Assembly (NCBI RefSeq): GCF_002309535.1
Contig: NZ_CP023275.1
Coordinates: 1,240,001 to 1,304,000 of the forward strand
Direction of reading: 5' to 3'
Length of the DNA stretch: 64,000 nt
Source: Sulfurospirillum diekertiae
GTDB lineage: Bacteria; Campylobacterota; Campylobacteria; Campylobacterales; Sulfurospirillaceae
The notes below the pieces were generated by a model. It saw only the letters and a list, made by a program, of their open reading frames with translations, ran no database searches and was not told where the DNA came from. The position numbers and the translations under genes were made by a program. Positions within the stretch are counted from its first letter, which is position 1, and the number at the start of each line of letters is the position of its first letter. Of this stretch, positions 15,736 to 25,650 are shown in pieces.

Positions 15736-16083
15736 ATCTTACCTCCGTATAAAATTTGCAATCGTAACGCGCTCAAGGTAACCCTGAACATTGTTAAAGT
15801 GTCTCTAATAAGCGAAATACCTTAACAACGCCAAAAGTTAGCATATATTTTTTTAGTTTAGCTTTAATTGTGCGTATCTTTAATAAAAGATAACGTATTT
15901 GAGGGAACAGTGTTTCAAAAAGTGTTTTTCTCTCAAACTAGGGAGTTTCGGCAAATTTACAATAACCTAAAAATTGTTTTTTATAGGGTCAATTTAAGGT
16001 TAAAAGAACTTGCACGGAACGCTTCTTGTATAATAACAACGAGGGTCTATTTTAAAGTAAATTCAATTTATGTGAGGTACACA
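15736..16083. promoter_or_regulatory. Divergent intergenic region with a predicted promoter for the aldo/keto reductase
   Basis: This 348-base region separates cstA (minus) from the aldo/keto reductase gene (plus). TATAAT at 16029-16034, directly preceded by TG, is a good -10 box about 50 bases before the start at 16084. The cstA side is T-rich without a clear box. An open frame continues upstream of 16084 but has no good start, so I read it as chance. Confidence 0.5.
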
Positions 16084-17211
16084 ATGCGTTTTTCTCATGC
16101 AACTCCTGAAGCGACTTATGGTTTTGCCAAACGTTTTGCGCATTACAAAGACTTTTATGCAAGGCACGATGGACTTATATTTTCTAAACTTGGCTTCGGA
16201 ACCTTTAAAAAAGAGCCTTATAAAGAGGAAAATTATACATTTGACTATAAAGATGCTCTCAAAACAGCCATACACCATGGCGTGAATGTCATTGACACTG
16301 CCATTAACTACCGATATCAACAAAGTGAACGTGAAATTGGTGAAGTTTTAGAAGAACTTTTTGAGAATGGTGACGTGAAGCGTGAAGAGCTGATCATCTG
16401 TTCAAAGGGTGGATTTGTCCCGCTTGATTTTCCTTTCCCTGAAAACCCTTATGAGTGGATTAATGAGCATATCATTCAGAAAGGTTTAGCAACTTCTTCT
16501 GACATCGAATTGGATCAGCACTGTATGACGCCAGCTTTTTTGAATAACTCATTAGAACGCTCACTTGCTAATTTACATGTAAAGTGTTTGGACATCTATT
16601 TTTTGCACAATCCAGAGACACAACTGACTAAAATTGGTTATAACCATTTTTTGAAACAACTTGAAGAGATTTTTGAAAGTTTTGAAGCGCATGTGAGAGA
16701 GGGAAAGATCAAAGCGTATGGAATTGCTGTGTGGAATGCGTTTACGTATGAAGAAGGCAATAGTGAGTATATTAACCTTGAAGAAGTGTACGATGTTGCG
16801 CGTAAAGTTGGTGGGGCTAGCCATCATTTCAAATACATTCAACTTCCGTTTAATATTGCAAAAACAAACGCGTACAGTGTACCCAATCAAAAAATGTCTG
16901 ATGGCAAGTATTACACGCCGTTGCAAGTAGCCTATAAACTAGGGCTTGGTGTGATGAGTAGTTCTTCATTGTTGCAGATGCACCTTTTTCAAAAACCTTT
17001 TAAGCCTGAAGTGGGTTATTTATTGGATTCACATATGGAGTTACAAAGCGACATTCAGTTAGCCCTTCAATTTGTACGCTCAACAAGGGGTATTGTAACG
17101 TCACTGTTTAGTTCGAGCAAGCGTGAACATGTCAGTAGCAATCTAGAAATTGCCACGATAAATGCTACCAACACTACAAAATACAATCTTCTATATAAAG
17201 TGGAGCGATAA
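16084..17211 (+). CDS. Aldo/keto reductase
   Basis: I choose the ATG at 16084, preceded by a GTGAGG ribosome site, giving 375 residues. The catalytic tetrad is visible: Asp in VIDTAINYRY, Tyr in the same motif, Lys in IICSKGG and His in FLHNPE. Members reduce carbonyls with NAD(P)H; the substrate is unknown. It ends two bases before the flavoprotein start, so the pair is co-transcribed with nifT. One palindrome copy at 16572 is read as LHVK. The C-terminal half (residues 250-375) is less typical. Confidence 0.8.
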   Translation: MRFSHATPEATYGFAKRFAHYKDFYARHDGLIFSKLGFGTFKKEPYKEENYTFDYKDALKTAIHHGVNVIDTAINYRYQQSEREIGEVLEELFENGDVKREELIICSKGGFVPLDFPFPENPYEWINEHIIQKGLATSSDIELDQHCMTPAFLNNSLERSLANLHVKCLDIYFLHNPETQLTKIGYNHFLKQLEEIFESFEAHVREGKIKAYGIAVWNAFTYEEGNSEYINLEEVYDVARKVGGASHHFKYIQLPFNIAKTNAYSVPNQKMSDGKYYTPLQVAYKLGLGVMSSSSLLQMHLFQKPFKPEVGYLLDSHMELQSDIQLALQFVRSTRGIVTSLFSSSKREHVSSNLEIATINATNTTKYNLLYKVER

Positions 17212-17212
17212 C

Positions 17213-18850
17213 ATGACATATGATGTAGTCGTAATTGGCTCAGGGATCGCGGGTCTCATGGCGGCAATCGAAGCAAAAAGTGAAACGAACAGTGTCGCCA
17301 TCATTACCAAAAGCAATATTTTTAAATCTAACAGTGCCGTTGCCAGTGGTGGCATTAATGCTGTTTTAGATGAAAAAAATGAGGTAGAAATTCAAAAACA
17401 CATCGAAGATACGATGAAAAGCTCTAAAGAGCTGGGAGATAAAAAAGCAATTAGTTATCTTTGTCATCAAGCACCTTTGATTATCAAAAAATTAGAAGCA
17501 TATGGTGTCGCGTTTGATCGTGATGAAAAGGGAAAAATTTTACAACGCAGTTTTGGTGGCGGAAGTTCCAAACGCACCTGTTTTGTCGGTGATAGTACCG
17601 GTTCAGCCATTACTCAAGCACTCATTAAAAAAGCAAAACTAGTAGGCGTTGATTTTTTAGTCAATCATTTTGTGATGGATATTACGAAAATAGAAGAGTA
17701 TGTCAGTGGGGTGGTTGCGCTTAAAAAACTAGACTCTACCGTAACCGTTTATCCTGCCAAAGCGGTTGTCTTTGCAGGTGGTGGCTATGCTGGAATTTAC
17801 AGGGGGTTTAGTACCAATGCACAAGATTGTACGGGAGATCTTTTAAGTATAGCGCTTCGCGCTGGCATGAGTTTAAAAGATATGGAATTTGTGCAGTTTC
17901 ATCCAACGGGTTTTGCAAAGACCAGTTACCTAGTCTCTGAGGCAGCACGTGGCGAAGGTGGGTATTTGGTTAACAGCGAAGGTGAACGTTTCGTCAATGA
18001 ACTTGGCACTCGTGATGTACTTGCACGCGCCATTTTTGAGCAGATTAGATCAGGTCAAAAAGTTTATCTTGATATGCGTCATATCTCCAAAGATATTTTA
18101 GAAACACGTGTTCCGTCTTTATACAAAAGTGCTTATACCCAAGTTGGCGTTGACTTGTCCTGTGAGCTTTTAGAGATCAAACCCGTGGCGCATTACAGTA
18201 TGGGAGGGATTGCTTCTTCGTTGACTTCAAGTGAAGTCAAAGGGCTTTTCATTTGTGGTGAATGCGCTGCACTTGGTGTGCATGGTGCCAATCGTTTAGG
18301 TGGTAATTCACTCTTAGAAGGAGCCGTTTTTGGAGAACTCGCAGGAAAAAAGGCGAGAGAGTATGCGTTTAATAAAGAGTTCTTACCCATTGATTACAAT
18401 GTGGTGATTAAAAATATGGATTTGGTGCAACGTATTTTTGATGGAGATTGTTCAAAAAACTTCAATGCAATGCGTATTTCTGTAGGAAAAATTATGTTTG
18501 ATAAAGCAGGGATTTTTCGCAATGAAAACTCCTTGCAAGAGGCATTTGATTATATGAAATACTTACGTCTTGAGTCCAATACTCTGCATTGTATTGATAA
18601 AGGCAAACACAATAATGTAGAGCTTATCTCTATTTTAGAGCTTAGAAATGCACTTGAACTTTCTGAAGCGATTATTCTCTCCGCTATGCAACGACGTGAG
18701 AGCAGAGGGGCACATTTTAGAGAAGATTTTGCCTTTACATGTAAAGAGGGAAAAGATCATGTTTTGATTAAAGAGCTTCAAAAAGGGTTTTTTAAAGTAC
18801 ATTACGAAGAGAGTGGATTGACCAAGTGGTTGAAAAAAATCTTAACATAA
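17213..18850 (+). CDS. FAD-dependent fumarate-reductase/L-aspartate-oxidase-type flavoprotein
   Basis: The ATG at 17213 directly precedes the FAD motif VVVIGSGIAGLMAA. The 545-residue protein has SAVASGGINAVL, VFAGGGYAGIY, QFHPTGFA, the active-site RGEGGYLVN, and HYSMGGI and GANRLGGNSLLEG. All are typical of SdhA, FrdA and NadB. The family oxidises succinate or aspartate or reduces fumarate. No FrdB or cytochrome b gene adjoins it. Because nifT and a NifA-like gene follow, a function linked to nitrogen fixation (for example aspartate or redox metabolism) is possible but unproven. A palindrome copy at 18734 is read as FTCK. Confidence 0.8.
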   Translation: MTYDVVVIGSGIAGLMAAIEAKSETNSVAIITKSNIFKSNSAVASGGINAVLDEKNEVEIQKHIEDTMKSSKELGDKKAISYLCHQAPLIIKKLEAYGVAFDRDEKGKILQRSFGGGSSKRTCFVGDSTGSAITQALIKKAKLVGVDFLVNHFVMDITKIEEYVSGVVALKKLDSTVTVYPAKAVVFAGGGYAGIYRGFSTNAQDCTGDLLSIALRAGMSLKDMEFVQFHPTGFAKTSYLVSEAARGEGGYLVNSEGERFVNELGTRDVLARAIFEQIRSGQKVYLDMRHISKDILETRVPSLYKSAYTQVGVDLSCELLEIKPVAHYSMGGIASSLTSSEVKGLFICGECAALGVHGANRLGGNSLLEGAVFGELAGKKAREYAFNKEFLPIDYNVVIKNMDLVQRIFDGDCSKNFNAMRISVGKIMFDKAGIFRNENSLQEAFDYMKYLRLESNTLHCIDKGKHNNVELISILELRNALELSEAIILSAMQRRESRGAHFREDFAFTCKEGKDHVLIKELQKGFFKVHYEESGLTKWLKKILT

Positions 18851-19127: not shown

Positions 19128-19153
19128 ATTTTAAACAGATGAAGGAGTGCAAA

Positions 19154-20551
19154 ATGGTTCAATTTGATGCTAAGTGTGGAGATTGCCTCACTACCAGAGA
19201 ACTCATGACACTCTATGAGACAGCAACTGTCGTTTCAAACTCATTGGATTTAGTTGCTTCGCTCGAAAAAGCATTACTTATTTTAAAAAATAGATTACAT
19301 TTAGAAAAATGTGTGATTCATACGCTGGGTGAAGATAGTCTTTTAACGGTTTATGCTGGTATTGATTTTAGCAAACATCAAAAAGAGTTAGCCACCTATA
19401 AATTGGGTGAAGGTGCTACAGGATACGCTGCCGAGAGTAAAGAACCTGTCGTCATAGAAAATTTACATAACGATATGATGTTTCTGAATAAATCAGGAAA
19501 TCGTGATCAAAATGCCATTTCATATATTGCTGTTCCGATGTTGGTTGACCAAGAAGTGATTGGAGTATTGGGTGCTAATATTACCAAAACAACTGCCATT
19601 AATTTTGAAAGTACCATTCGTGTTTTAACGATTTTAAGTTCAATTTTTGCTCAATCTATTCGGTCACATGACATCAATCTTAAAGAAAAAGAGCGTTTAA
19701 AAGAGCTTAAACTTTACTATAAGATGGAGTGGGATTCTAAAGTACACAATTTTGGGGATATCATTGGTGAAAGTCCTAAAATGAAGATGGTGTATAACGT
19801 TGTTGAACGTATTGCTGAGAGCAATGTCACCGTTTTAGTGCGTGGTGAGACAGGAACAGGCAAAGAGCTTGTTGCTGCTGCTATTCACAAACGTTCTAAA
19901 CGTCGTGATGAGCCTTTTGTCAAACTTAATTGTGCCGCTATTACCGATACGCTCATTGAAAGTGAGCTTTTTGGGCATGAAAAAGGTGCTTTTACCGATG
20001 CAAAAGAAGCACGTAAAGGTCGTTTTGAATTGGCTGATGGAGGAACACTCTTTTTAGATGAAATTGGTGATATTTCTGCTTCTGCTCAAGTGAAACTCTT
20101 ACGTGTTTTACAAGAGCGTGAATTTGAACGTGTGGGTGGAAGTAAGACTGTTAAAGTGAATGTTAGGTTGGTCGCCGCAACCAATCGAAATCTTGAAGAA
20201 ATGGTTAAAAATGGTACGTTTAGAGAAGATTTATATTATCGTCTGAACGTCATTCCCATTGATTTACCTGCTCTTCGTGAGCGTGGCGATGATATTCCCC
20301 TTCTGGTCAATTTCTTTTTGCAAAAATCGATGAGTAACCACAAAAAACGTGTTGTTATTACCGATGAAGCGATGGACATACTCTGTCAATATACATGGCC
20401 TGGCAATGTGCGAGAACTTGAAAATACGGTTGAGCGTATCGTGCTTATGGGAAGTGAAGATGGCATAACTGCCGATGAGATGTTACTACTGCTTCCAGCC
20501 TTTAATCAAAAATTGATGTGTCAACGAAGGATCATGAGTGAAGAAGAGTGA
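19154..20551 (+). CDS. nifA: NifA-like sigma-54 activator (GAF + AAA+) lacking the C-terminal DNA-binding domain
   Basis: The ATG at 19154 has AAGGAG 7 bases upstream, giving 465 residues. A GAF sensor domain spans about residues 18-180. An AAA+ domain follows with Walker A GETGTGKE, the sigma-54 loop as GAFTDA (usual GAFTGA), Walker B GTLFLDEIG and WPGNVREL. Only about 35 residues remain after that, with no Fis-type helix-turn-helix. H. pylori FlgR also lacks its DNA-binding domain, so this form may activate from solution. NifA identity rests on the GAF-AAA+ layout and nifT beside it; another GAF-type activator is possible. Confidence 0.75.
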   Translation: MVQFDAKCGDCLTTRELMTLYETATVVSNSLDLVASLEKALLILKNRLHLEKCVIHTLGEDSLLTVYAGIDFSKHQKELATYKLGEGATGYAAESKEPVVIENLHNDMMFLNKSGNRDQNAISYIAVPMLVDQEVIGVLGANITKTTAINFESTIRVLTILSSIFAQSIRSHDINLKEKERLKELKLYYKMEWDSKVHNFGDIIGESPKMKMVYNVVERIAESNVTVLVRGETGTGKELVAAAIHKRSKRRDEPFVKLNCAAITDTLIESELFGHEKGAFTDAKEARKGRFELADGGTLFLDEIGDISASAQVKLLRVLQEREFERVGGSKTVKVNVRLVAATNRNLEEMVKNGTFREDLYYRLNVIPIDLPALRERGDDIPLLVNFFLQKSMSNHKKRVVITDEAMDILCQYTWPGNVRELENTVERIVLMGSEDGITADEMLLLLPAFNQKLMCQRRIMSEEE

Positions 20552-21368
20552 ATTAGAAGCACAAATCAAAGAGGGTCGTTTGATTCCATTTATTGGGATG
20601 GGTGTCTTTAAAGAGACTAAAACAGAAGATGGTGAGCAAATACCATTTGATAGTGATTCAATGATTTTACGTCTGAATGGTGGTCGTGCTATGTCTCAGC
20701 GCTTGATGTATGAGTATTCTCGTGCTGCGATGAGTTTGGAACAACGTAAAGGACGACCTTATATTGAGCAGATGACCAATCATATTTTTACGTTTAAACC
20801 TTATCCTATGCCCTTAGTCTATACGTGGCTTAAAACATTAATGCCTCGTTATGTCATCGATCTTAATTTAGATGATTCGCTTTTGAAGCTTTATGCGGAT
20901 AGAGACCATTTTTTAGTGACAGGTGTGAGCCGCGTTATGGCAGGGTATGATCGCTTTTTGGTGTACATGTATACGGCTTCCAGTCAAGAGTATAAACGTG
21001 TGGATAAAGAGTTGCTCAGCCAAATGTTACCCATTCTCTTTAAGCCTTTGGGATGTACCGTTCCTGAAAAAAGCTTTATTATCAGTGATGCAGACTTTGT
21101 GGATTGGCTTACCGAGGCCATGGGTGGTTATGCCCTTCCTCCTTTTTTAAAAACCTTCAAAAATGACAAAAGTTATCTTTTTTTAGGGATTGATTTTGAT
21201 CGTGATACCTATAGAATGGTGGCGAATGAAGTCACATTAGGATTGAGTGGTGGCTATTTGGTGAATGATAAAGAAGAGATGAGTAAAAAAGAAGAGAAGT
21301 TTTTAACATCTCATAAAATTGAAAAATTTAGCACTTCGTTAGAAGCTTTTCTAAAGAGTGCAGAGTAG
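20538..21368 (+). CDS. SIR2-like domain protein overlapping the NifA-like gene
   Basis: A GTG start at 20538, with GAAGGA upstream, overlaps the nifA-like stop by 14 bases, so translation is probably coupled. The 276-residue protein has GRLIPFIGMGVF near residue 13, which resembles the NAD-binding start of SIR2-like domains, then an acidic, charged body without membrane segments. SIR2-like proteins bind or cleave NAD. I infer a regulatory or protein-modifying role with the activator. The similarity is visible mainly at the N-terminus, so the family call is moderate. Confidence 0.55.
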   Translation: MKKSELEAQIKEGRLIPFIGMGVFKETKTEDGEQIPFDSDSMILRLNGGRAMSQRLMYEYSRAAMSLEQRKGRPYIEQMTNHIFTFKPYPMPLVYTWLKTLMPRYVIDLNLDDSLLKLYADRDHFLVTGVSRVMAGYDRFLVYMYTASSQEYKRVDKELLSQMLPILFKPLGCTVPEKSFIISDADFVDWLTEAMGGYALPPFLKTFKNDKSYLFLGIDFDRDTYRMVANEVTLGLSGGYLVNDKEEMSKKEEKFLTSHKIEKFSTSLEAFLKSAE

Positions 21369-21442: not shown

Positions 21443-21835
21443 TTATTCTTCGACAGTTACTTCGACAGGATCACTTTCCCAAACACCATGTTTTGTACAG
21501 TAGCTTTGTGCAACAAGGTTCAGTTTTTTACCTGTTGGAACGATGGTAAAGGTCACTTCAGCTTGTCCTTTTTTATCTTGTCCACCAAGGGTTCCGGCAA
21601 TAAAATCAGCACGTGCTAACAGTACATCTCCATTGAAAAGTTGTATATTGGCAATGTAATGATCAAAATCATCGGGATGAGTATACGCATTTCCAACTTT
21701 TACAGTCACTTTAAGCGGCGCATTTTGTTTTGCCGTAGCATTACAGGTAATAAATGGAGAGTGTCTATCGATGTAATCTTTACGTGCTTCTCTCTCAACA
21801 GTGTCAATATCAACATAACGATTGATTTTTGGCAT
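21443..21835 (-). CDS. Superoxide reductase, neelaredoxin-like (class II)
   Basis: This 130-residue protein has the iron ligands of superoxide reductase: H25 in DRHSPFI, H53 and H59 in HPDDFDHYI, and C113 and H116 in CTKHGVW. It lacks the N-terminal desulforedoxin domain of class I. The enzyme reduces superoxide to hydrogen peroxide in the cytoplasm without making oxygen. It is a single gene facing the nif-type cluster, and protection of oxygen-sensitive enzymes is plausible. Confidence 0.9.
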   Translation of the reverse strand: MPKINRYVDIDTVEREARKDYIDRHSPFITCNATAKQNAPLKVTVKVGNAYTHPDDFDHYIANIQLFNGDVLLARADFIAGTLGGQDKKGQAEVTFTIVPTGKKLNLVAQSYCTKHGVWESDPVEVTVEE

Positions 21836-21971: not shown

Positions 21972-22817
21972 TTAGATAAGTGTAATGGCAACTTTGTGCT
22001 GGTCGAGTCCAATGCTCTTTTTATGCGTTTCGCCCAAAGCAAGGAGTAGTAGTTCCGCAAGGCTTAAAACACTTAAGCCGATCTCTCGACCTACAATTTT
22101 TTCAAGCTCTTTTTGGTAAAAATCAAACATGATAAAGCTACGGGCATCACTCACTAGTACAAAATCAGCAGCATTGTCAAACATATCGAGCATGACTTTT
22201 GAAGCAAGTTTTTTAGCCAAAAGAGGCGACGCATCATAGACTTCAAAACCATCACTTTCAAACGTACTCGCATGTTTAATTTGCTTGAGTTTGATAAGAT
22301 CAAGGAGTTGTGTGAATAGCTCTTCTTTGCGGTATTTTTTAGCACGGCAAGAATTTGAGCCTAAGAAAAGAGCTGTTTGAAAGTTTTCAAATGGTTTTTT
22401 GAGTAAACTAGCTAGTTTTTCAGTGCCTATCTCTTCGATAAGAAGTTCTTCCAGTGAAATGACATTCGCATTGAGATTAAGAGAAAGATTGTGCTTTTCC
22501 AACCGCAATGCAATTTCAAATTTGAGATTAGAATCATTGAGTAAAATCTCTTTGGCATGGGCATGGCAGACAAGAGAACTTTGTTCAAAACAGAGAATAT
22601 CACGTTTTTGCTCAGCAGCCAATGTAAGATTGTACGCATAATGCTCTAAAAACTTGAGACGATCAAGTCCCATGTATTCGCTTCCAAGATCATTTTTTGC
22701 CCCTTTGAAGGAGATGGCATCTATCTGTAAAAATTCGATGAGTTTTTTTGCGGATGTAATTAAGGGTGCAGTTTTTTCACGGTGAATAATAGCATCAAAA
22801 AGAAGATAACTTTTCAT
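21972..22817 (-). CDS. Degenerate HdrB/MfrE-like protein
   Basis: I choose the ATG at 22817 (AAGGAAACC upstream), 10 bases after the partner gene, giving 281 residues. The fold matches HdrB/MfrE (CCG-domain) proteins: LEHYAYNLTLAAEQKRDILC aligns with the helix before the second CCG loop, and VISLEELLIEEIGTEKLASLLKKP with the following segment. The cysteine-rich CCG loops are gone: GSNSCRAKKY stands where YGC..LRP is expected, and only a few Cys remain. It probably cannot hold the non-cubane cluster. It may have become a structural or regulatory subunit. Confidence 0.65.
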   Translation of the reverse strand: MKSYLLFDAIIHREKTAPLITSAKKLIEFLQIDAISFKGAKNDLGSEYMGLDRLKFLEHYAYNLTLAAEQKRDILCFEQSSLVCHAHAKEILLNDSNLKFEIALRLEKHNLSLNLNANVISLEELLIEEIGTEKLASLLKKPFENFQTALFLGSNSCRAKKYRKEELFTQLLDLIKLKQIKHASTFESDGFEVYDASPLLAKKLASKVMLDMFDNAADFVLVSDARSFIMFDFYQKELEKIVGREIGLSVLSLAELLLLALGETHKKSIGLDQHKVAITLI

Positions 22818-22827
22818 AATGGTTTCC

Positions 22828-23505
22828 TTACATAAGATCGATGTGATGAGAAAATTTTTCAACGAGCGTGTTTGCAAATGGTCGGTGTTTCATCACCTCA
22901 TTTTTCAGCTCTGTAATTTTTTTCTCAACATCTGCACCACAAGGATAAATTTTCTTGCACAATCTTACATGTAAAAAGAGACCTGTATGTTCATTGGCAA
23001 CAATTTCTAGGATTTCACGTTTTCGATCAGGATGTTTTTGGATCATATCGTAGGCAAACGCAAAAAGGGCGTCACCTTGAAAGTCTTCTACAAATTCAAG
23101 GACACTGGAAGCATAGTAATAGATGATATACTGATCGTACAGTGCTTTGTCTTTTGTCTCAACAAAAGCTTCAAGCAATTTAAATTTTTTGTCAAAATTG
23201 CCGGTATTGATGATCATATCTTTGGTAACATGTTTGGTATTGAGAGGCTCTAACGTCAGTGATTTTCCAAAAGAGTTGATAATGCCATCAATGGAGACAT
23301 GACTAAAAAGGGCTTTTCCATTGATTTTAAGGGCCGCAAGATCACCTTTTGGATAGTCAAAACTACCATCTTCTATTTGAATAAGTGCTAGAAGGTCATT
23401 CACATTTTTACTTCTATCTATGGTGATAAAATGCTTTTTATAATAAGGTAAAAAATCCGTTGTAGCGTCAAAGCGAAAGACGCTCAGCTCGAGTTTACAC
23501 TCCAT
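22828..23505 (-). CDS. Degenerate FrdB/MfrB-like protein
   Basis: This 225-residue protein begins like the [2Fe-2S] domain of succinate dehydrogenase/fumarate reductase B subunits: LSVFRFDATTDFLPYYKKH, then a loop ending LKINGKALFS. The cluster-binding Cys run that should precede LKING is replaced by YPKGDLAA. The C-terminal half keeps the helical shape (MIQKHPDRKREILE) but only two Cys. It is the first gene of a two-gene operon with the MfrE-like protein. Both have lost cofactors in parallel, so they have probably co-evolved. Function unknown. Confidence 0.65.
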   Translation of the reverse strand: MECKLELSVFRFDATTDFLPYYKKHFITIDRSKNVNDLLALIQIEDGSFDYPKGDLAALKINGKALFSHVSIDGIINSFGKSLTLEPLNTKHVTKDMIINTGNFDKKFKLLEAFVETKDKALYDQYIIYYYASSVLEFVEDFQGDALFAFAYDMIQKHPDRKREILEIVANEHTGLFLHVRLCKKIYPCGADVEKKITELKNEVMKHRPFANTLVEKFSHHIDLM

Positions 23506-23660: not shown

Positions 23661-24485
23661 ATGTCAAAAGAGGCGTTTTTTATCTCAGAATTTTCCAGTC
23701 AACACATTGGCGATGATGGTGCCGTTGTTGGGGATTTTGTCTATTCAAAAGATCTGTTTTGCGAAGATATTCACTTTAAGCGTTCATGGATGAGTTTAAC
23801 ACAGATCGCGCAAAAAAGTATGCTTGTCAATCTTTCCGATGCGATTGCGATGAATGCGAAACCTAAGTGGGTGCTTATTGGCATAGTGATGCCAAAGCAT
23901 TTTACGTACGAACAATTGCGCGAATTAAGTACAGGGTTTCAAAATGTAGCACGTGCGTATGGGGTTGAGATTATTGGTGGAGATACTACTGCTGGGAATA
24001 AATTGATGATTTCCATCACCATCATTGCCAAACGTCCTTCCAAGGTGCTTTACCGCAGTGGCGCAAAGCTTGGAGACTTGGTTGCCTTTACGGGAACACT
24101 AGGGCGTTCTTATCAAGAACTTACACGGCTGTTGCGCGGAGGTCATGTAGGGAAAGACTCACGGTTTAAGAAGCCTGTGTTAAAAGCAACTTTTGTCGCT
24201 AAAGCTTCTAAGCATCTTAATGCAGGCATGGACATCTCTGATGGTCTTTCCAAAGACCTCTCCAGATTGCTTAAAGCTAGCGGAAATTTAGGTTTACATG
24301 TAAAGCATAAATTGGCCAAGCGAACGCTGTGCAGTGGGGAAGAGTATGAGATGCTTTTTAGTTTTGATGCACGTAAAAAAAAGATTGTAGAACGTATTGC
24401 CAAACAGACACGCACACCGATTACGATTGTAGGAAAAACAGTGCGCAAGCGTTATGTGTGCCGTTGTAAAGAACACCACTTTTGA
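23661..24485 (+). CDS. thiL: Thiamine-monophosphate kinase ThiL
   Basis: This 274-residue protein has the ThiL blocks IGDDGAVV near residue 16, LVNLSDAIAMNAKPKW, EIIGGDTTAG and MDISDGLSKDLSRL. ThiL phosphorylates thiamine monophosphate to the active diphosphate. It is shorter than many ThiL proteins (about 320) but keeps the catalytic segments. It is followed by truD and is separate from the thiD-cytX-thiM operon 7 kb away. A palindrome copy at 24293 is read as LHVK. Confidence 0.9.
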   Translation: MSKEAFFISEFSSQHIGDDGAVVGDFVYSKDLFCEDIHFKRSWMSLTQIAQKSMLVNLSDAIAMNAKPKWVLIGIVMPKHFTYEQLRELSTGFQNVARAYGVEIIGGDTTAGNKLMISITIIAKRPSKVLYRSGAKLGDLVAFTGTLGRSYQELTRLLRGGHVGKDSRFKKPVLKATFVAKASKHLNAGMDISDGLSKDLSRLLKASGNLGLHVKHKLAKRTLCSGEEYEMLFSFDARKKKIVERIAKQTRTPITIVGKTVRKRYVCRCKEHHF

Positions 24486-24564: not shown

Positions 24565-25650
24565 ATGAACAGACAATTTTTTCTCACCCATTCGCCGATT
24601 AATGCAATGTTTACTAAAAACAGCAGTGACTTCGTCGTCAGTGAAATTCCACTTTACCCTTTCAGCGGCGAGGGCGAGCATCTGGTTTTACATGTAAGGA
24701 AAAAAGATATGACAACATGGGATATGCTTCAGTATCTCAGTGAAGTGACAGGATGCAAAGTGCGTGATTTTGGCTATGCGGGGCTTAAAGATAAAGACGG
24801 CATGACGACACAGTACATCTCACTGCATAAAAACTTTGAGCCAAAGCTTACTAACTTTACCCATGAAAAGATCAAAATACTGGACACAACGTACCATAAC
24901 AACAAGATTCGTACAGGACATCTCAAAGGCAACCGCTTTTTTATACGTCTGAAAAAAGTCAATCCGATTGACGCCAAAAAACTACAAGATGGACTTAAAA
25001 AAATCAGCAAAGAGGGCTTTCCAAACTTCTTTGGGTATCAACGCTTTGGTATCGATGGCGATAATTATATTAAAGGAAAAGCCATCTTAGAGGGAAAACG
25101 TAAAGAGCGCAATCCTAAAATGAAAGAGTTTTTTATCAATGCGTATCAGAGTTATCTTTTCAATACATGGCTTTCTAAGCGCATTGAGATCAGCCGTTTG
25201 ATCGAAGAGTTTAATGTCGCAGATGCAACAAGAGCGACGAATTTGCCCAAAGAGATGGTCGAAAGTCTTAAAAAACAGCCACAATTTTTTAAACTGCTTC
25301 ATGGCGATGTATTGCATCATTATCCTGCAGGAAAAGCATTTGTGTGTGAAAATGTAGAAGAAGAACTTCCTCGCTTTTTGGAACACGGCATTACGATTGC
25401 AGGCTGGTTACTCGGTGGTAAAAATATCCGAGCAGAGTATGAAGCAGGTGTCATTGAAAAGCAAATCTTTGAAGAGTGTGAACCTTTTTTGGACAAACTC
25501 AATGGAAGCCGACGTTTTGCATGGAGCTTTGCGGAAGAGGTTGAGGGCGTTTATAAAGAGGAAGAGGCATGGTTCGAAATGCACTTTTCTTTGCCTAAAG
25601 GCTCGTATGCAACGGTAATTATAGAAGAGCTAATAAAAGTTTCGCTATAA
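24565..25650 (+). CDS. truD: tRNA pseudouridine-13 synthase TruD
   Basis: This 361-residue TruD-family protein has the catalytic Asp D76 in GYAGLKDKDGMTTQ. The family blocks SDFVVSEIPLYPFSGEGEHL, GNRFFIRLKKV and PNFFGYQRFG are also clear. TruD makes pseudouridine 13 in tRNA-Glu. It sits 15 bases before the RNase P RNA, so tRNA processing and modification functions adjoin. One palindrome copy at 24687 is read as LHVR. Confidence 0.95.
   Translation: MNRQFFLTHSPINAMFTKNSSDFVVSEIPLYPFSGEGEHLVLHVRKKDMTTWDMLQYLSEVTGCKVRDFGYAGLKDKDGMTTQYISLHKNFEPKLTNFTHEKIKILDTTYHNNKIRTGHLKGNRFFIRLKKVNPIDAKKLQDGLKKISKEGFPNFFGYQRFGIDGDNYIKGKAILEGKRKERNPKMKEFFINAYQSYLFNTWLSKRIEISRLIEEFNVADATRATNLPKEMVESLKKQPQFFKLLHGDVLHHYPAGKAFVCENVEEELPRFLEHGITIAGWLLGGKNIRAEYEAGVIEKQIFEECEPFLDKLNGSRRFAWSFAEEVEGVYKEEEAWFEMHFSLPKGSYATVIIEELIKVSL

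Follow-up and report, generated by a model that had tools for sequence, protein, structure and literature searches.

What is left of a redox enzyme when two of its interacting subunits lose every ligand of their iron-sulfur clusters and are kept all the same? The question is raised by two neighbouring genes in the stretch of Sulfurospirillum diekertiae DNA analysed here (the window, 64,000 nucleotides). An earlier note on this DNA had described their products as MfrB/MfrE-like proteins that lost their ligands in parallel, and had suggested a new non-redox role for them, perhaps as an assembly or regulatory pair. We call them degB (the B-like protein) and degE (the E-like protein), together degBE:

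22828-23505, minus strand: degB, a cluster-free SdhB/FrdB paralogue of 225 aa, assigned from its ORF, Pfam match, ligand count and AlphaFold model
degB residues 1-103: beta-grasp domain, formerly that of the [2Fe-2S] cluster
degB residues 104-206: helical domain (DUF5644)
21972-22817, minus strand: degE, a cluster-free SdhE/HdrB paralogue of 281 aa, with both CCG-type domains present and their cysteines absent
22823-22829, minus strand: AAGGAAA, a ribosome-binding-like motif of degE read from the sequence, overlapping the degB stop

Both frames are intact and adjacent, as first described, with a gap of 10 bp. We took ATG 22817 as the degE start; the TTG start proposed by the ORF finder would overlap degB. 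The AAGGAAA motif sits 5 bp upstream of this ATG, and its overlap with the degB stop suggests that the two genes are co-transcribed.

degB belongs to Pfam DUF5644 (PF18712; 40.3 bits, gathering cut-off 25) and matches the Fer2_3 [2Fe-2S] domain below threshold (20.9 bits, cut-off 27). degE belongs to HdrB-like_C (PF22196; 47.9 bits, gathering cut-off 33.4), while its matches to the full-length HdrB model and to the MFR SdhE model stay below cut-off; for the MFR SdhE equivalog NF042965 the score is 47.7 bits against a curated cut-off of 500. The reported loss of the [2Fe-2S] cysteine run and of the CCG cysteines proved complete in the window pair: degB has 0/12 cysteines at the columns where canonical SdhB carries its ligands ([2Fe-2S] and two further clusters), and degE has 0/10 at the corresponding columns of canonical SdhE, and so lacks the 10-cysteine motif of SdhE, MfrE and HdrB. 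The degE residue C76 lies two positions before a ligand column, and a shifted alignment would restore at most one ligand cysteine. Judged by these sequences, cluster-based electron transfer by degBE is excluded.

The structure predictions suggested by the earlier note were run and gave confident models. For degB (alignment of 55 sequences) the pLDDT is 92.4, with a low-confidence tail at residues 211-225, and the two-domain SdhB/FrdB fold is found: Z is 17.3 to FrdB 1kf6_B and 17.2 to SdhB 2wp9_B, and 17.1-17.3 over ~200 aligned residues to E. coli FrdB, E. coli SdhB and Wolinella FrdB. For degE (alignment of 44 sequences) the pLDDT is 95.7, and the model matches HdrB structures over its full length with Z of 31-32, among them HdrB 8rvy_B (Z 32.1 over 278 residues), with the two-domain HdrB fold. 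In these models the parental folds are fully kept in both proteins despite the absent clusters.

We then asked how far the pair extends. Genome contigs scanned with an alignment of six sequences gave 61 loci from Campylobacterota/Epsilonproteobacteria groups, except for two (L060, L088) that are assigned only to Proteobacteria. The contig-scan loci and added whole-genome loci make up a set of 81 distinct degenerate B loci, so homologues are conserved and not scattered. The E partner is adjacent on the same strand in 51 of them and fused in 29, and a contig end cuts the last, which bears out the idea of a functional pair. The fused and separate states require four changes on the tree. The first E domain is absent from the short fusions and present in those of Helicobacter type. 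The constancy of pairing and fusion argues for a shared complex. Overall, this ligand-free pair is conserved across Campylobacter, Helicobacter and related bacteria, in many cases as a single fused protein.

Ligand loss is equally uniform. The degB sequences have 0/12 ligand cysteines in 80 of 81 distinct cases and 1/12 in one, against 11-12 in 22/22 full canonical SdhB sequences; this main count was made with partial domains set aside (the genome's own MfrB, the FrdB rows, L102, L107 and L119). Among 31 further B frames from other genomes, in which B ligands alone were counted, 14 have no ligands and 17 have 12, with no intermediates. Ligand counts in B are bimodal, 0-1 versus 11-12. The E count covers 80 degE and 22 canonical SdhE sequences: all 10 ligand cysteines are present in 22/22 canonical proteins, and degE has none in 68/80 and a cysteine at one of the 10 columns in 12/80, the first five ligand columns being absent from the short fusions.

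In a profile search, matches were found in 335/397 genomes and 63/68 genera, a count that mixes degB with canonical SdhB. At least ~150 places among the matches listed reach 175 bits or higher, which sets a minimum for degB; the best canonical SdhB seen scores 135 bits. At ~100-140 bits the score by itself fails to separate the two types, as L132, L133, L135-L138 and L156 have 0/12 ligands and L140-L155 have 12/12. A strong match is present in 22/22 genomes of the window's own family. Among the 397 genomes, some genera of families f2, f3 and f7 gave no match; the no-match status of G127 comes from one search. Seventeen genomes, including G003 (the source of L058), have a single B match with 12/12 ligands, that is, a canonical SdhB and no detected degB.

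Phylogeny places the loss at a single point. Degenerate B proteins form one clade (73 rows, support 100/99) that holds together with every cysteine masked (support 90), and degenerate E proteins likewise form one clade (68 rows, support 100). The neighbouring group to degB is canonical cytoplasmic SdhB, whose own monophyly is weaker (66/86). Partial rows and near-copies were omitted from the trees (14 rows from the B set), the genome's own MfrB and two FrdB were re-entered whole in the B set, and L053 and L026 are long branches on the B tree. The MfrB/MfrE-like label was therefore right as to superfamily and wrong as to nearest relatives, which on the trees are cytoplasmic SdhB/SdhE. Nor is the loss a parallel, recent and local event: ligand absence throughout the clade and the single clade on the trees rule out recent parallel loss within Sulfurospirillum, and point to one ancient change common to the whole clade.

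Gene order bears on the same history. In the window the pair is flanked by:

21443-21835, minus strand: a desulfoferrodoxin-type (SOR) gene, from Pfam PF01880 and synteny; it follows sdhABE in other families too
23661-24485, plus strand: a conserved neighbour cluster (cl1), which we take to be ThiL, divergent from degBE in many loci
24565-25650, plus strand: a conserved neighbour cluster (cl2), presumably TruD

Loci of Arcobacter and Sulfurovum type (L093-L095, L100, L107, L116) have the order TruD-ThiL, degBE, sdhA, sdhB, sdhE and often SOR. The Sulfurospirillum order is TruD-ThiL, degB, degE, SOR, with sdhABE missing between degE and SOR. The loci of Sulfurimonas have degBE either divergent from sdhABE or downstream of it (L109), and degBE does not head that operon. 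Degenerate and canonical sdhABE types occur together in 17 fetched loci, and in nine genomes with both types, set by bit score (the degenerate copies of G117 and G265 verified by ligand count), they lie at most ~4.2 kb apart in 8/9, the ninth (G265) having them on two contigs. Gene order favours TruD-ThiL / degBE-sdhA-sdhB-sdhE-SOR as the ancestral locus, with sdhABE lost later in Sulfurospirillum. The simplest reading is one early duplication of sdhB-sdhE at the locus, a single loss of all ligands and, afterwards, the disappearance of sdhABE from several families. We are nearly certain that degBE is an ancient ligand-free paralogue of the SdhB-SdhE half of the cytoplasmic E-type succinate dehydrogenase of Campylobacterota, as regards its identity, origin and cluster-free nature.

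A pair of proteins that has lost its active centres could simply be on its way out, as residual pseudogenes heading for loss. Patchy absence across some genera and two stops inside the G246 match would fit such a fate. Against it, the median dN/dS in 14 Sulfurospirillum-type genomes is 0.096 for degB and 0.103 for degE (usable dS in 53/91 and 52/91 pairs, respectively), frames are intact in most of the matches listed, the AlphaFold folds of both proteins are confident, and the pair has been retained order-wide after one origin. Decay is excluded within the genus Sulfurospirillum, where a dN/dS of ~0.1 and intact frames refute pseudogene status for the window pair; for degBE as a whole we consider residual pseudogenes extremely improbable. 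Scattered homologues and pseudogene decay, the two findings that would have spoken against the earlier note, were both looked for and neither was found. Maintenance, conserved homologues and pairing together support the non-redox role it had proposed. The word "new" did not survive for the protein itself, which is known as DUF5644 and has a Helicobacter pylori structure.

The job of degBE is thus probably structural and not electron transfer, and the question becomes what it might hold. The earlier note had pointed to the flavoprotein at 17213, which looks unrelated and is rejected here as the main hypothesis: that gene follows an aldo/keto reductase in the window and in L121 and L126, where its homologues (67% and 51% identity) are not near degBE, so the two form a separate pair; the flavoprotein was seen near degBE in Sulfurospirillum-type loci only. 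Many Sulfurospirillum loci retain the order degB-degE-SOR-SIR2-activator-flavoprotein. In the window, 15868-18850 holds the aldo/keto reductase and the orphan SdhA-like flavoprotein, which has no covalent-FAD histidine and no iron-sulfur partner gene, and 19139-21368 holds a NifA-like sigma-54 activator and, after it, a protein with a SIR2_2 domain. Elsewhere (L120, L122, L124, L125, L127-L129) a 502-549 aa SdhA-like flavoprotein is followed by its own SdhB-like gene, apart from FrdABC and SdhABE.

We suggest that degB and degE would form a two-part scaffold, free of electron transfer, in which the retained N-terminal domain of degB binds a flavoprotein, the likeliest docking partner being of SdhA/FrdA type; degBE might cap or chaperone this flavoprotein, or tune its complex. 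In the complex II enzymes that are known, this domain of SdhB-type proteins lies against the flavoprotein. Docking to a flavoprotein is favoured because this is the domain of degB that best keeps canonical residues: 26/41 are retained in the N-domain and 5/19 in the C-domain (Fisher P-value 0.012), scored over positions with a conservation of at least 95% among canonical SdhB that lie over 3 columns away from any ligand, columns that are not independent. Of 32 kept positions, 28 are shared with canonical SdhB by the window degB, 11 by the genome's own MfrB and 8 by its own FrdB, with the reservation that these positions were picked for being shared and that the C-terminal part of the FrdB row that was added has gaps. 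Fold constraints alone may also explain why the N-domain is better retained.

Two further observations concern the flavoprotein side. The FAD-assembly factor family PF03937 scored above cut-off in 0/80 Campylobacterales, with one weak 20-bit match, while the E. coli and Caulobacter controls were positive. Canonical SdhA and FrdA of Campylobacterales keep the covalent-FAD histidine motif, which signifies covalently bound FAD. Taken with N-domain retention, they make flavoprotein docking the most economical guess. We regard a protein-docking role as rather probable and put forward an SdhA/FrdA-type partner tentatively, as a doubtful identification; the combined statement, a cluster-free SdhB-SdhE paralogue pair with a docking role, we hold to be evenly balanced. 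If docking holds, it would help explain how covalently flavinylated fumarate reductase matures in Campylobacterota without the usual assembly factor. The stronger version, in which degBE is a dedicated holdase or flavinylation factor, an SdhB-SdhE mimic that caps SdhA/FrdA-type subunits and substitutes for the apparently absent SdhE/SdhAF2 assembly factor, seems to us unlikely.

Genome distribution runs contrary to docking in one respect. All 21 tested genomes without a clear degB match retain an FrdA/SdhA-type protein (above the FrdA cut-off in 20; below it in G086, at 410 bits). The presence of FrdA/SdhA in these 21 genomes, and of canonical SdhB in the 17 described above, indicates that neither Frd nor Sdh needs degB, and a strict co-requirement of degBE with FrdA or SdhABE is rejected. 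The pair may have an accessory role, or one that has nothing to do with complex II. An assembly or regulatory role, as the earlier note had suggested, may be played for Mfr, Frd or Sdh, though by genome distribution FrdA exists without it.

The latter could take the form of a scaffold or regulator independent of complex II flavoproteins, with the old SdhB-SdhE dimer recruited elsewhere, for example to cell envelope or flagellar work, and its ancestry of historical interest only. The absence of degB does not follow FrdA, and the pair persists at loci now without sdhABE, beside PepF in Helicobacter, MurA in several f7/Arcobacter loci (L044, L046, L050 and L090-L092), and RsmD/FlgI in some f3 loci (L048, L051 and L139), names that we assign from the sequences. 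This inconstancy between families also weighs against such a role, and since operon mates differ by family, gene context names no single partner. In the Helicobacter-type loci (L097, L099, L101, L130, L131, L134) the order is a PepF-like peptidase, a ~160 aa protein, degBE (fused or split) and a ~104 aa protein; in L090-L092, L044, L046 and L050 the degBE fusion is flanked directly by the MurA-like gene on its 5' side and by the gene of a ~206 aa protein bearing CxxC pairs on its 3' side. A flagellar connection could be read from PMC9570263, which tabulates the DUF5644 protein HP0468 among the genes conserved by those Helicobacter whose flagella are sheathed. A role specific to the sheath is unlikely from the order-wide distribution of degBE, which also occurs in Sulfurospirillum, Sulfurimonas and Sulfurovum relatives. 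We consider a scaffold outside complex II possible, though short of probable.

A different alternative is that a new enzymatic or ligand-binding site has arisen in the degE domain where the clusters used to be. The domain has degE-specific conserved residues (F143, F219, F228, F231), it retains D214, D218, D232, R244 and H274, and it shows a distant fold similarity to Asp/Glu racemases (Z up to 8.5). But D214, D218, D232 and R244 are common to canonical SdhE and look structural, the racemase Z is close to the level expected of common arrangements, and the first degE domain is deleted in the short fusions. We judge a new site very unlikely, and a docking role remains our preferred reading.

How does degBE compare with what is already described? 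The H. pylori crystal structure 3KWL (Pfam DUF5644) is a single chain that matches both window proteins (E 6.9e-13 and 8.8e-10): residues 2-222 align with degB (Z 16.3) and 232-495 with degE (Z 28.9). H. pylori thus has as a fused chain what the Sulfurospirillum window has as two genes. A 495-aa fusion at L130, similar to 3KWL, is degenerate at the same B positions, and the 3KWL protein is most likely HP0468. Within the portions of the sources consulted, 3KWL is tabulated as of unknown function (PMC3397514), and HP0468 appears with cancer-associated variants, is termed poorly conserved beyond Helicobacter and is cited as up-regulated by hydrogen (PMC6090961). The SdhABE/MFR enzymes with the 10-cysteine motif and the MfrB/MfrE subunits are described, in the part of the source consulted, in PMC2680327. 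In the literature searched, which was seen in part and whose scope left out subscription journals and supplements, no link of HP0468 or DUF5644 to SdhB-SdhE was found. Searches of the same scope for a cluster-free SdhBE paralogue found nothing, and neither did one for Cj1459, which we take to be the C. jejuni gene number for this family.

The analysis tells what DUF5644 is, where it came from and that it is distributed order-wide, and it points to a testable partner class. It also offers a clear example of interacting redox subunits, two in number, that lost all clusters together and yet stayed as a unit. Among the closest known systems is the cytoplasmic E-type SdhB/SdhE of Campylobacterota, a neighbouring clade that has folds, locus and many residues in common with degBE; by contrast, degBE lacks all 12 + 10 cluster cysteines, and the C-terminal extension of SdhB is absent from degB. 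MfrB/MfrE of methylmenaquinol:fumarate reductase belong to the same superfamily and stand farther off, and intact MfrABE and FrdAB are encoded elsewhere in the same Sulfurospirillum genome. The complete fold of HdrB, a subunit of methanogen heterodisulfide reductase, is present in degE but the CCG cysteines are not, and so degE carries the same architecture without non-cubane clusters or the HdrB active site.
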